Shown one piece after another: positions 1,711 to 64,000 of a DNA stretch of 64,000 nucleotides. A program made the position numbers and the translations under genes. The notes below the pieces were generated by a model. It was not told the origin of the DNA and searched no databases. It saw only the letters and a program-made list of their open reading frames with translations. The DNA comes from Actinomyces sp. Lineage in GTDB: Bacteria > Actinomycetota > Actinomycetes > Actinomycetales > Actinomycetaceae. The stretch spans positions 131,882-195,881 of the forward strand of contig NZ_JAUNHI010000001.1 of NCBI RefSeq assembly GCF_030524025.1, read 5' to 3'. Within the stretch, counting starts at the first letter, position 1, and every line of letters starts with the position of its first letter.

Positions 1711-1754
1711 CGAGATCGGGACATATGACCCCTCGAGATCGGTAGATATGGCAC
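1711..1754 (+). repeat. Intergenic 23-nt repeat element, copy A (2 units)
   Basis: Two tandem units of about 23 nt start at 1711 and 1734. Each opens with CGAGATCGG and contains ATATG; the first continues GACCCCT and the second GCAC. A C-rich stretch (CCCCACCCCTCGC) precedes them. The element is 68 nt downstream of the manA stop, between convergent manA and the TIGR03089 gene. Related copies occur near 39560, 56591, 59323 and 63574. The remainder of the 190-bp gap shows nothing else recognisable. Confidence 0.8.
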
Positions 1755-1833
1755 GGCCGGGCGCAGTCCCGTGTCTCCTACCCCGCACCACCCCACCCCG
1801 CCCTTGTCCCAGCCGCACCTCGGACTACACCGT

Positions 1834-39334: not shown

Positions 39335-39559
39335 CGTCGAACCGGGGATGCAGCGGAGAAGTCCGCGATTCAGGGGGCACTGGGCTGTGTAGGCCGAGCA
39401 CGACCACCTGTGGATGCAACCGATGGTGACCGGCCACACCGGGCAGGTCCTCCAGCACCGCCCGCGAGGCCACTGGTTAGCGTCGGACCGTGTGGGTCGA
39501 AGTCGCAGGCTCGACCCCGGCCCTGTGGGCCCGCCCATGTGCCGGACGCGGCGATCTTG

Positions 39560-39582
39560 AGGTGTCATAAGTCCCGATCTCG
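39560..39582 (-). repeat. Intergenic 23-nt repeat element, copy B (1 unit), in a 315-bp gap
   Basis: One unit, read on the minus strand as CGAGATCGGGAC then TTATGACACCT. It lies 54 nt downstream of the uppP stop, after a C-rich run (CACCCCACCCCCTCCC on the minus strand). It is the only recognisable structure in the gap 39322-39636 apart from the ATPase promoter hexamer. Confidence 0.75.
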
Positions 39583-56590: not shown

Positions 56591-56657
56591 CGAGATCGGT
56601 AGATATGACACCTCGAGATCGGGACATATGGCACCTCGAGATCGGTAGATATGGCAG
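56591..56657 (+). repeat. Intergenic 23-nt repeat element, copy D (3 units)
   Basis: Three tandem units start at 56591, 56614 and 56637, each opening CGAGATCGG and containing ATATG, then GACACCT, GGCACCT or GGCAG. A pyrimidine-rich stretch (CCCCCTCCTCGC) precedes them. It is 59 nt after the mog stop, between convergent mog and mobA. This is the largest of the five elements. The rest of the 253-bp gap shows nothing else. Confidence 0.85.
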
Positions 56658-56784
56658 GGCGGGGCGCAGAACCGCAGGTGCTGTGTCGCGGATCGGGCCG
56701 GGGCTCAGCGACCAAGGCCCGGACCTACCGACCTCCGTGGAATCAATGATCGAGTGACGCCGGCCGTCGCCCGGTCACCCACCG

Positions 56785-59208: not shown

Positions 59209-59322
59209 CGTTCCTCTCGCGGTGGTCCGCTCTGGTACGGCTGTTCTGAGCCGAGGTTAGTCCCTCCCGGGCCTGCCGGCTGGCCGTGCTGCCGGCTGAC
59301 TGTGTCAGATGCGGCGACCTCG

Positions 59323-59368
59323 AGGTGTCATATATCCCGATCTCGAGGTGTCATATGTCCCGATCTCG
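59323..59368 (-). repeat. Intergenic 23-nt repeat element, copy E (2 units)
   Basis: Two tandem units on the minus strand (59368-59346 and 59345-59323), each CGAGATCGGGA then CATATG or TATATG then ACACCT. It begins 17 nt after the moeA-moaC stop and lies upstream of dop. The minus-strand run CCCACCCCATTCCTCC precedes it, within the end of the coding region. The distal flank (CGAGGTCGCCGCATCTGAC) matches copies B and F. Confidence 0.85.
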
Positions 59369-59385
59369 GGAGGAATGGGGTGGGA

Positions 59386-61275
59386 TCAGGCCTCGGGGCG
59401 GGACCAGGTGCCCGAGCGGCCTCCGGACTTGAAGGTCACCCTCGCCGCGCGCAGCGCGACGGACCGGTCGATCCCCTTGAGCATGTCAACGACCGCCAGA
59501 CCTGCCATCGTCACGGCCATGAGGGCCTCCATCTCGACGCCGGTGCGGTCCGCGGTGCTCACCTCACCGGTGATCCGCACACCCCAGTCCTCCACGGACA
59601 GCTCGACTCGGCAGCCGTGCACACCGATGACATGGGCCAGAGGAAGGAGCTCGGGCACCTTCTTGGCGGCGGCGATCCCCGCGACGCGCGCCACCGCGAG
59701 CACGTCGCCCTTGGGCACGGCGCCGTCGCGCAGCGCGGCCACCGCGTGCGGCGAGCAGGAGACCTCGGCCGACGCGGCGGCGCGGCGGACCGAGACGGGC
59801 TTGTCGGTGACGTCGACCATGTGGGCGGAGCCGGCGTCGTCGAGGTGGGTCAGACGCGGTGGTGGTGAGCCCCGTCCCGGTGCGTGCCATACGGGCGCAG
59901 TGAGGACCGGCATGGCCGGAGCGGACAGCGGGATCATGGCGACCTCGTCACCGACCTCCACCTCGGCCACACTGGGATCGACGACGGCCAGCGCCTGGGC
60001 GGCCGCCAGCGAGGCCACGAGGTGGGAGCCCGAACCCAGGTGATGGGTCGGCTCGACCCAGTCAGAGGCACAGGATGCGGGCGCCGCGCCGGACGTCTCA
60101 CGGGCGGTCGCCTGGCCCGCCGCGGGCGGCGCCTCGACGAAGCGCACAGGGATGTGTTGGCGTCGCCCCTGCCTCGCTGGCCAGCCCATGGCTGCGCGGG
60201 CGCGGCCCGGTGCGAGGGCCCCGGGCGTCGTCGGGGTTCTCGGAGAACCGGTGGCCGCGCCGTCGTGACCGGACAGGCGGGCAAGCGCCGGGACGACGAA
60301 GGTGGTGAAAGAGACCAACACGCTCACCGGGTTGCCGGGCAGCGCAATGAGTGGCACGTCGCGTCCGTCGGTGGACCGCACGGCGCCATGCCCCTGCGGC
60401 CGGCCGGGCTGCATGCCGACGTGGGCGAGATCGAGGCGGACGGCGCCGGTTGTCGCACCGCCCGCAAGCTGGGTCAGGGGGTCGAAGGCGCCGGCGGACA
60501 CGCCCCCGGAGGTGACAATGAGATCGGCGCCGTCGGCGGCGCGGGTGAGGATCTCGGTCAGGGGACCGGCGAGGTCGGGGCCGCGGCTCACCGAGGCCAG
60601 TGCCGCCCCGTGCTCAGCCACCAGGCCGGACAGCAGCAGGGAGTTGGAGTCGGGGATCGACCCGGTGGGCAGTTCGGGTCCCGGGTCGACCAGCTCGGCA
60701 CCGGTCGAGACCACGGCGACCCTCGCCCGTGGCACGGCGCGCACCCGCGCGACACCGACCGAGGCCAGCGAGGCCTGAGCCATGGCCGAGATGACGGTCC
60801 CCGCCTGCAGGAGGGGATCTCCCGGGCGCACATCCTCGCCCGCGTGACGGATGTTCTGGCCGGCGCGGGCGTGAGCGCGGACCTGAACGTGTCCGGGCAG
60901 CGGGTGGTCGCCCGGCTCCTGGTCGGTGTCCTCGACCTTGACCACGCAGTCCGCGCCTCGGGGGACCATCGCACCGGTCATGACACGCGCAGCGGTGCCG
61001 GGAGCCAGTGGCACGGGGACCGTCCCCGCCGGGACGTCGCCGGCCACAGGTAGTCGCACCGGGGTCTGGGGGCGTGCCGCTGCGACGTCGACCGCACGGA
61101 CCGCGTAGCCGTCCATGGCCGAGTTGGTCCACGGGGGCACCGGCAGCGCAGCCCCGACGTCCTCGGCGAGCACCAGCCCGTGCGCCTCGGACAGTGGCAC
61201 CTCGACCGCGGGCAGCGGATGAAGCGCGGACAGAACCTCCGCCAGGTACTCCTCGGGAGTCAACGTGGTCGTCAT
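59386..61275 (-). CDS. moeA-moaC: Fused molybdopterin molybdenumtransferase MoeA and cyclic pyranopterin monophosphate synthase MoaC
   Basis: A 629-residue bifunctional protein. Residues ~1-465 are MoeA (Mo insertion): PWTNSAMDGYAVRA (about 50), GAMVPRGADCVV, ADLIVTSGGVSAGAFD (about 238-253), ALPGNPVSVLVSF (about 318). A Pro/Ala/Arg-rich insertion occupies about 345-410. Residues ~475-629 are MoaC (second step of molybdopterin synthesis): MVDVTDKPVSVRRA, LLPLAHVIGVHGC, GVEMEALMAVTMAGLAVVDML. The two enzymes act at opposite ends of the pathway, so channelling is not an obvious reason for fusion. The ATG at 61275 has GGAAGGA upstream. It is divergent from moaE. Confidence 0.94.
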   Translation of the reverse strand: MTTTLTPEEYLAEVLSALHPLPAVEVPLSEAHGLVLAEDVGAALPVPPWTNSAMDGYAVRAVDVAAARPQTPVRLPVAGDVPAGTVPVPLAPGTAARVMTGAMVPRGADCVVKVEDTDQEPGDHPLPGHVQVRAHARAGQNIRHAGEDVRPGDPLLQAGTVISAMAQASLASVGVARVRAVPRARVAVVSTGAELVDPGPELPTGSIPDSNSLLLSGLVAEHGAALASVSRGPDLAGPLTEILTRAADGADLIVTSGGVSAGAFDPLTQLAGGATTGAVRLDLAHVGMQPGRPQGHGAVRSTDGRDVPLIALPGNPVSVLVSFTTFVVPALARLSGHDGAATGSPRTPTTPGALAPGRARAAMGWPARQGRRQHIPVRFVEAPPAAGQATARETSGAAPASCASDWVEPTHHLGSGSHLVASLAAAQALAVVDPSVAEVEVGDEVAMIPLSAPAMPVLTAPVWHAPGRGSPPPRLTHLDDAGSAHMVDVTDKPVSVRRAAASAEVSCSPHAVAALRDGAVPKGDVLAVARVAGIAAAKKVPELLPLAHVIGVHGCRVELSVEDWGVRITGEVSTADRTGVEMEALMAVTMAGLAVVDMLKGIDRSVALRAARVTFKSGGRSGTWSRPEA

Positions 61276-61437
61276 GGCAGGTCCTTCCCTCGGCGGCAAC
61301 ACGGGGCGGCGCGCTGGTCAGGAGCCATCATGCCCGGTCCGAGGTGGTCCAGGACAGGTGCAGGCGCCGATCCGTACAGGCATCGCCGCCCGGTGCCCTG
61401 GTCCATGGCGCGACCCGGCGGCGTCGAGGTCAGCGCA

Positions 61438-63475: not shown

Positions 63476-63573
63476 TCGGATGCGGAGGTGACTGGACGAT
63501 GCCGCAGCTGGTTCGGTCGGGGCGGGACGGCTGGCCGAGCAGCCGGCTGCTTGTGCCAGATGCGGCGATCTCG

Positions 63574-63596
63574 AGGTGTCATAAGTCCCGATCTCG
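63574..63596 (-). repeat. Intergenic 23-nt repeat element, copy F (1 unit), in a 340-bp gap
   Basis: One minus-strand unit, CGAGATCGGGAC then TTATGACACCT, the same as copy B. A C-rich run (CCGCCCTCCCCTCCCC) precedes it and CGAGATCGCCGCATCTGG follows. It is 207 nt downstream of the stop at 63804 and ~110 bp upstream of moaA. The gap also holds a small plus-strand frame at 63686. Confidence 0.75.
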
Positions 63597-63803: not shown

Positions 63804-64000
63804 TCAGCGCCCGGCGGGCCTGGTCGGGTCCTCGGCCTCCAGGGCGGGGGCGAGCAGCCGCCGGAAGGACTCCACCCGCGCCCGGCGCCGGTTGCGCTCG
63901 GTGGCGTCGGGCACTCCACCTTGCCCGGCGCCCGCCTGCGTCTGTCCTGGCTCGCCGCCCTGGGGCTTCTCGGCCATCGCCTCCGCCCCCTCGTCCGCCC
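63804..64000 (-). CDS. Hypothetical protein, C-terminal part (cut by window edge)
   Basis: An open minus-strand frame enters from the right edge and stops at 63804. The visible part is charged and low-complexity, with a helical ERNRRRARVESFRRLLAPAL segment before the end AEDPTRPAGR. An internal ATG would give a 58-residue protein, but the frame stays open to the edge, so the true start may lie outside. It is not Pup: no C-terminal Gly-Gly-Gln/Glu. Family unknown. Confidence 0.4.
   Translation of the reverse strand, partial: ADEGAEAMAEKPQGGEPGQTQAGAGQGGVPDATERNRRRARVESFRRLLAPALEAEDPTRPAGR

Follow-up and report, generated by a model that had tools for sequence, protein, structure and literature searches.

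Dispersed tandem repeats in Actinomyces and the AbiEi-like/Vsr-like nuclease gene enclosed by their arrays

Short repeats that stand just past the ends of genes raise the question of whether they act on the transcripts that end there or belong to an element that spreads through the genome. This question is posed by a 64,000-nt stretch of an Actinomyces sp. genome (72% G+C; assembly GCF_030524025.1, 2.68 Mb), namely positions 131,882 to 195,881 of contig NZ_JAUNHI010000001.1 (C2:131882-195881; hereafter, the window), in which five intergenic copies of a 23-nt unit follow manA, uppP, mog, moeA-moaC, and a gene ending at 63804. A sequence-only reading of the window had interpreted these copies as 3'-end processing or termination elements. 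Our analysis points to an unrecognized mobile system of two parts and away from a simple signal at gene ends. We consider it probable that the repeats make up the dispersed component of a genetic element whose other component is a single-copy AbiEi-like/Vsr-like nuclease gene enclosed by the same repeats. To our knowledge, dispersed intergenic repeats are common in bacteria and no enzyme is known for most of their families, the RAYT transposases being the best-known exception.

Repeat dialects and the enclosed nuclease gene

In the genome that contains the window (G000) and in a sister genome (G019), an array comprises 1-11 units of 23 nt, each made up of CGAGATCGG, a variable stretch (e.g., GACATATG, TAGATATG, or GACTTATG), and RCACC, in that order; a C-rich leader precedes the units, and a diverged unit like CGAGATCGCCGCATCTGGCAC often comes last. 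A genome-wide search of the kind that the sequence-only reading had proposed returned 225 exact matches to CGAGATCGGN{3,6}TATG against 0 for the reversed control, and the repetition of this core in the genome is not a matter of chance. Elsewhere in the genus, the head CGAG-N-Y-CGG is mostly retained and the tail and period (22 or 23) vary, the repeats coming in species-specific dialects, with farther ones at three nuclease loci (e.g., CGAGAACGGTACTTGTT, CGAGAACTGGTGTTATC, and CGAGACCGTATGTTTCA). In five contigs of the window's genome (C5, C6, C24, C25, and C27), an array starts in the first 60 bases, which makes the repeats a probable cause of assembly breaks.

The nuclease gene lies outside the window, as a single copy at C6:70-1275, and encodes a protein of 402 amino acids, in which the N-terminal region is like that of AbiEi antitoxins and the C-terminal domain is a nuclease of Vsr/DUF559 type. 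It stands between two inward-facing arrays in this genome, and the same gene is so placed in G019 and G005. Among 49 congeneric genomes searched, 21 carry one copy each of a separate protein group (bit scores of at least 176, the next best match reaching 103; the G066 copy is in two pieces), which forms a clade with invariant acidic residues. Inward-facing arrays lie on both sides of the gene in 20 of the 21 carriers and on one side only in G028, a count for which automatic detection left eight loci incomplete; G000 and G019 were completed from further observations, and six were read by eye, five of these being two-sided. The arrays are mostly within a few hundred nucleotides of both gene ends, the flanking genes fall into about seven sites by our own grouping, and inverted 12-mers (at least 4) are shared across the gene at 17/21 loci, compared to direct ones at 1 locus. 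Genes enclosed by inward-facing arrays numbered 3 of the 1024 predicted in three samples, one of them being the nuclease gene; these samples, also used below, comprise 456 kb of the window's genome (C2, C9, and C10, window included), 400 kb of G019 in stretches picked for containing arrays, and the first 400 kb of G005, with genes predicted by a home-made codon model. AbiEi-type models match all 18 members scored at E <=0.01 (best E 3e-10), the N-terminal match being weak; Pfam matches at E 0.01 among these members are DUF559 (4), MTES_1575 (2), AbiEi_1 (1), and AbiEi_4 (1), and nothing else. The best fold matches are Vsr-like, with the conserved acidic residues present.

Arrays and gene co-occur across the genus. 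Counting tandem matches to CGAGNYCGGN{11,14}CGAGNYCGG, with a threshold of at least 20 and control counts of 0-2, we found array-rich genomes among 16/21 carriers (44 to 579 matches) and 3/28 non-carriers (Fisher p=4e-6), a p-value that overstates independence because the species are related. G015 and G016 fall below the threshold owing to dialect (6 and 23 own-dialect matches in 100 kb). Several observations weigh against pairing the repeats with the nuclease: three genomes without the gene are still array-rich (70, 54, and 28 matches); G008, G020, and G028 carry the gene yet have few copies; and the count is biased by dialect, with gene-free genomes scored on known dialects only. In G066 (L336), a frame change divides the nuclease gene in two, with 138 tandem matches remaining, a possible recent loss.

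How far the association reaches was examined with related genes. The congeneric DUF559 paralogs serve as a control that limits the claim: 0/9 are enclosed by units of the Actinomyces array family at the loci seen, but 8/9 share at least 4 direct 12-mers across their flanks. Flanking direct repeats were observed at most of the other Actinomyces DUF559 genes examined (L337, L338, L340, L342, L344, and L345; ~150 nt in L342). The L341 paralog lies between inward-facing 20-nt arrays with a different sequence, and the Fisher comparison of enclosure was therefore made with 1/9 paralogs. An association of DUF559 genes with repeats may extend more broadly. In an order-wide scan of 396 genomes, with four candidates scored in each, nuclease matches outside Actinomyces were distant (best E 7e-50). 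Nine of 27 further DUF559 loci (23 from other genera and four Actinomyces paralogs) share inverted words across the gene, compared to 25/702 pairs in a cross-locus control, which suggests that the enclosure may be older than the genus; the claim is limited in that direct words are shared at 12/27 loci and part of the words are simply G+C-rich. GAG-core units (e.g., GCTGAGATCGCACC or GCCGAGTTCGCTGATT) occur in some of these flanks. The search for dispersed copies gave 0 matches in G114 and G110 (other genera; 100 kb of each) and 0 in the paralog-bearing congener G031. Perhaps nuclease-array systems are spread Actinomycetales-wide.

Array placement, orientation, and gene ends

The copies in the window are as follows:

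1711-1756, plus strand: array of 2 units of 23 nt after manA, with a C-rich leader at ~1690-1710
39560-39582, minus strand: single unit after uppP
39537-39559, minus strand: diverged terminal unit of the CAAGATCGCCGCGTCCGGCAC type; a similar terminal unit follows many G019 arrays
56591-56659, plus strand: array of 3 units after mog
59302-59370, minus strand: array of 2 units (59325-59370) and a diverged terminal unit (59302-59324), after moeA-moaC
63574-63596, minus strand: single unit, 207 nt past the gene ending at 63804
63551-63573, minus strand: diverged terminal unit, CGAGATCGCCGCATCTGGCAC

The sequence-only reading was accurate within the window: all five copies are present with 2, 1, 3, 2, and 1 units (three also carry a diverged unit), their distances from the stops are 68, 54, 59, 17, and 207 nt, and 5/5 have the same orientation relative to the upstream gene. 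It had further taken this polarity as fixed, which does not hold beyond the window. The 112 arrays placed in the three samples (33 in the window's genome, 51 in G019, and 28 in G005) fall into 44 convergent, 52 tandem, and 16 divergent spacers (expectation from spacer numbers, 20.3, 66.6, and 25.1; chi-square across the three classes, p=4e-8; unpaired arrays alone, p=8e-4). A placement at gene 3' ends is thus borne out as convergent-spacer enrichment, but not as strict polarity. Although 74/112 arrays follow a same-strand stop, 44 of those are in convergent spacers and are uninformative on polarity because either orientation counts as the same there; in tandem spacers, 30 arrays run along the upstream gene and 22 run opposite to it (binomial p=0.33). 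Neighboring arrays less than 1500 nt apart face each other in 22/24 pairs and face away in 0. Together with the tandem counts and the equal leader described next, this inward facing suggests that orientation is a property of the paired element more than of the neighboring gene. A replication-strand bias was ruled out, as a listing of one unit form shows mixed strands.

The C-rich, G-poor leader had been likened to a Rho loading site. Its composition is confirmed: the 30 nt preceding an array have C at 0.55 and G at 0.19 in G000 (9 arrays) and at 0.59 and 0.20 in G019 (16 arrays), compared to 0.37-0.40 and 0.35-0.39 downstream of array-free stops; the G005 leader is weaker (C 0.44, G 0.25; 28 arrays). 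However, C minus G is the same for arrays that have no gene ending upstream (0.302, n=38) as for the others (0.300, n=74; p=0.93), and the leader therefore belongs to the element itself and is no evidence that Rho loads on the upstream gene's transcript. Folding of unpaired arrays was no better than that of shuffles in three species (median z from -0.62 to 0.43 for the arrays by themselves and from -0.83 to 0.25 when 30-nt flanks were included), with no hairpin signal, and an RNA hairpin within the unit was ruled out by folding z near 0. Head-to-head array pairs form palindromes. An Rfam scan of five G019 loci at the gathering threshold found only a tRNA.

Certain gene-end data agree with the view that the arrays are sequence-specific terminators or 3'-end processing sites whose C-rich leader loads Rho. 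Besides the convergent-spacer enrichment, strong terminator-like hairpins are fewer at array-bearing ends (4/34) than at array-free convergent ends (33/84; Fisher p=0.004) and marginally fewer than at tandem ends (55/192; p=0.055), and shuffle-corrected hairpin scores also differ (p=0.001 and p=0.0003, respectively). Likewise, hairpins with a score of at least 24 are commoner at the array-free orthologous ends of uppP (8/28) and mog (4/10) than at the array-bearing ones (0/2 and 1/7). A termination effect is thus possible, although part of the shortage of hairpins is expected, since the array occupies the scanned space; downstream of arrays, hairpins show no excess (5/33 vs 15/99). Given the near balance of tandem orientations, the 16 arrays in divergent spacers, a leader composition independent of the upstream gene, no RNA structure beyond shuffles, and an enclosed nuclease gene that is left unexplained, we regard termination or 3'-end processing as an unlikely primary role. 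The orientation, spread, and dialects are better accounted for by the association with the nuclease than by a signal at 3' ends.

Judging from predicted reading frames, arrays can reshape gene ends: at C9:75928, a predicted gene ends inside an array, without the last residues that are present in the array-free sister genome, and at five other loci of approximately four species, the gene facing mog seems to end in the first unit (by eye; one confirmed by a gene finder).

Comparison of orthologous gene ends showed that the positions of arrays vary by species. At manA, a tandem array occurs only in the window's genome (1/30 congeneric ends) and not in G019, and two other congeners have one reversed unit head each. 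At uppP, arrays are present in the window's genome and G019 only (2/30), the latter with 5 unit heads in the same place, and the 28 other ends have no tandem array within 260 nt, two of them having a single head beyond 200 nt. At mog, an array in the same place and orientation occurs in 7 of the 17 genomes with a mog match (20 searched), every one of them with a dialect of its own; in five of the seven (G005, G029, G063, G064, and G066), the array is one wall of a nuclease cassette adjoining mog, which weakens positional conservation as proof of a 3'-end function.

This variation by species indicates movement or fast turnover, and it bears on another explanation, in which the arrays are binding or self-marking sites of a defense or regulatory AbiEi-like nuclease and are kept by protein action without mobilization. 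Consistent with such sites, AbiEi-type models match every member scored, AbiEi antitoxins are described as binding repeats at their own promoters in the part of the literature cited here (PMC7319586), and by eye the units seem more conserved than their flanks. Nevertheless, the arrays prefer gene ends over promoters, and a manA array in 1/30 genomes and a uppP array in 2/30 fit poorly with sites held in place, so that we judge this explanation improbable.

Regarding the neighboring genes, a single reading frame in the window (59386-61302) covers moeA and moaC as a fusion; the match spans both without a stop in G028 and G005, and several other genomes have an internal stop or separate part matches.

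Mobile DNA at the arrays and a proposed mechanism

In the sister genome, the homologue of the 63574 site has the unit, with an IS30-family element inserted in that unit. This element (HTH_38 and rve domains) has 17 copies in G019, of which 13 have both ends and 2 more have one end inside arrays, at a fixed unit position (28/34 ends, the L289 match having been dropped as false by eye), and 11 of the 13 array-embedded copies have matching 3-base TGG or TGA on both sides. The target choice of this transposase is unusually strict (L161, L163, L171, L172, L177, L178, and L276-L295 of G019). G019 also has related segments of 560-940 bp, free of predicted genes, that lie between paired arrays. Two of these segments, at separate sites, are 99.8% identical, and the segments resemble NIME-like mosaics:

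L165:7187-7752, L173:16238-16803, L171:6739-7532, L174:4767-5645, and L161:9029-9967: array-flanked segments of G019

At L169:8642-9868, a glycosyltransferase gene lies between two G019 arrays that stand side by side in the window's genome.

Such insertions and repeated gene-free segments would be expected if the arrays were ordinary miniature elements moved in trans by a transposase, e.g., this IS30-family element, with the nuclease as a passenger. Yet the exact end sequence of the insertion sequence is absent from the array-rich G000, G005, and G029, so the insertion sequence uses arrays as targets and does not make them; its ends are also unlike the units (by eye), and in the samples no gene other than the nuclease was found enclosed in more than one species, although the samples are small. 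We consider this origin very unlikely.

If repeats and nuclease do form one element, we hypothesize that the N-terminal region recognizes the 22-23-nt unit and that the nuclease nicks or cuts there; repair or copying would then spread and homogenize arrays in intergenic DNA, mostly at gene ends, in a manner analogous to RAYT transposases, which are thought to disperse REPs (repetitive extragenic palindromic sequences). If transcript 3' ends are affected at all, this would follow secondarily from where the genome tolerates arrays. We advance only tentatively the broader proposal that AbiEi-like/Vsr-like nucleases residing inside their own inward arrays (19-23-nt units with a GAG-containing core), binding and cutting those units and so copying and homogenizing hundreds of arrays chromosome-wide, constitute a categorically new selfish or domesticated system. 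The 49 genomes with or without the nuclease gene, with their own dialects, are a natural series in which the origin and spread of a repeat become directly testable. Such a system would also assign a role to one branch of the large DUF559 family and supply nucleases with matched candidate target dialects, and it may account for assembly breaks and unusual C-termini met by annotators of Actinomyces genomes.

Comparison with known systems

Among top-ranked titles and abstract openings of open-licence literature, we found no link between a DUF559/AbiEi-like nuclease and a dispersed repeat, nor this Actinomyces repeat. The pneumococcal BOX element has a variable central module. Like the arrays, BOX is intergenic, and it is considered parasitic, but it is described as having extensive RNA secondary structure (PMC3049150, in the passages cited), in contrast to arrays with none beyond shuffles. 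Staphylococcal STAR elements are similarly intergenic direct repeats that change in copy number and are abundant or scarce by species; they differ in that the cited part of the STAR study reports no neighborhood common to two species, as opposed to the mog array in 7/17 genomes, and no enzyme gene (PMC3532100). Neisserial dRS3 repeats (~20 bp) also flank longer segments (NIME) and serve as insertion sites for other mobile DNA, whereas the arrays here are tandem and vary in their number of units, a 6-bp inverted repeat is present in dRS3 copies, and the cited portion of the dRS3 account mentions no dedicated nuclease gene (PMC10745880).

On the enzyme side, the AbiE type IV toxin-antitoxin system is comparable in the N-terminal region, which may be of AbiEi type (a weak match), and in having repeats beside the gene (PMC7319586, in the part cited), but here a C-terminal nuclease domain replaces the antitoxicity domain and the gene stands alone between arrays. 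Regarding the adjacent AbiEii nucleotidyltransferase toxin gene of AbiE systems, the arrays mostly come within a few hundred nucleotides of the nuclease gene on either side. With Vsr-like/EDxHD homing endonucleases, the nuclease shares a Vsr-like fold and conserved acidic residues.

REP/REPIN sequences and their RAYT transposases were compared on the basis of selected parts of three papers (PMC2817692, PMC3733652, and PMC3116915). Their hallmarks, as given in the cited part of one of these, are inverted repeats enclosing the gene, repeat numbers that track the gene, and co-varying dialects (PMC2817692). All three recur here: the nuclease gene lies between inverted arrays (both sides in 20/21, one side in 1), repeat numbers track its presence (16/21 vs 3/28, p=4e-6), and the forms are species-specific; moreover, as with REPs, the arrays are mostly at gene ends and between convergent genes, and some units supply stop codons. 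REPs are also described, in the passages cited, as targets of insertion sequences (PMC1525189), as are the arrays for the IS30-family element of G019. Unlike RAYTs, however, the enzyme is an AbiEi-like/Vsr-like nuclease and not a Y1 (HUH) tyrosine transposase; a Y1 (HUH) domain was not among its Pfam or best fold matches, and no search was aimed at separate RAYT genes. The repeat differs as well, being a tandem 22-23-nt unit with a C-rich leader and no hairpin detected, whereas a REP is a short imperfect palindrome that folds into a hairpin. Because the hallmarks recur with a different enzyme and a different repeat, we describe the arrays and their gene as a dispersed-array system associated with a nuclease, one that operates like REP/RAYT but does not belong to it; if this is correct, it would be a non-transposase counterpart of REP/RAYT, in which enzyme and repeat dialect evolve together.
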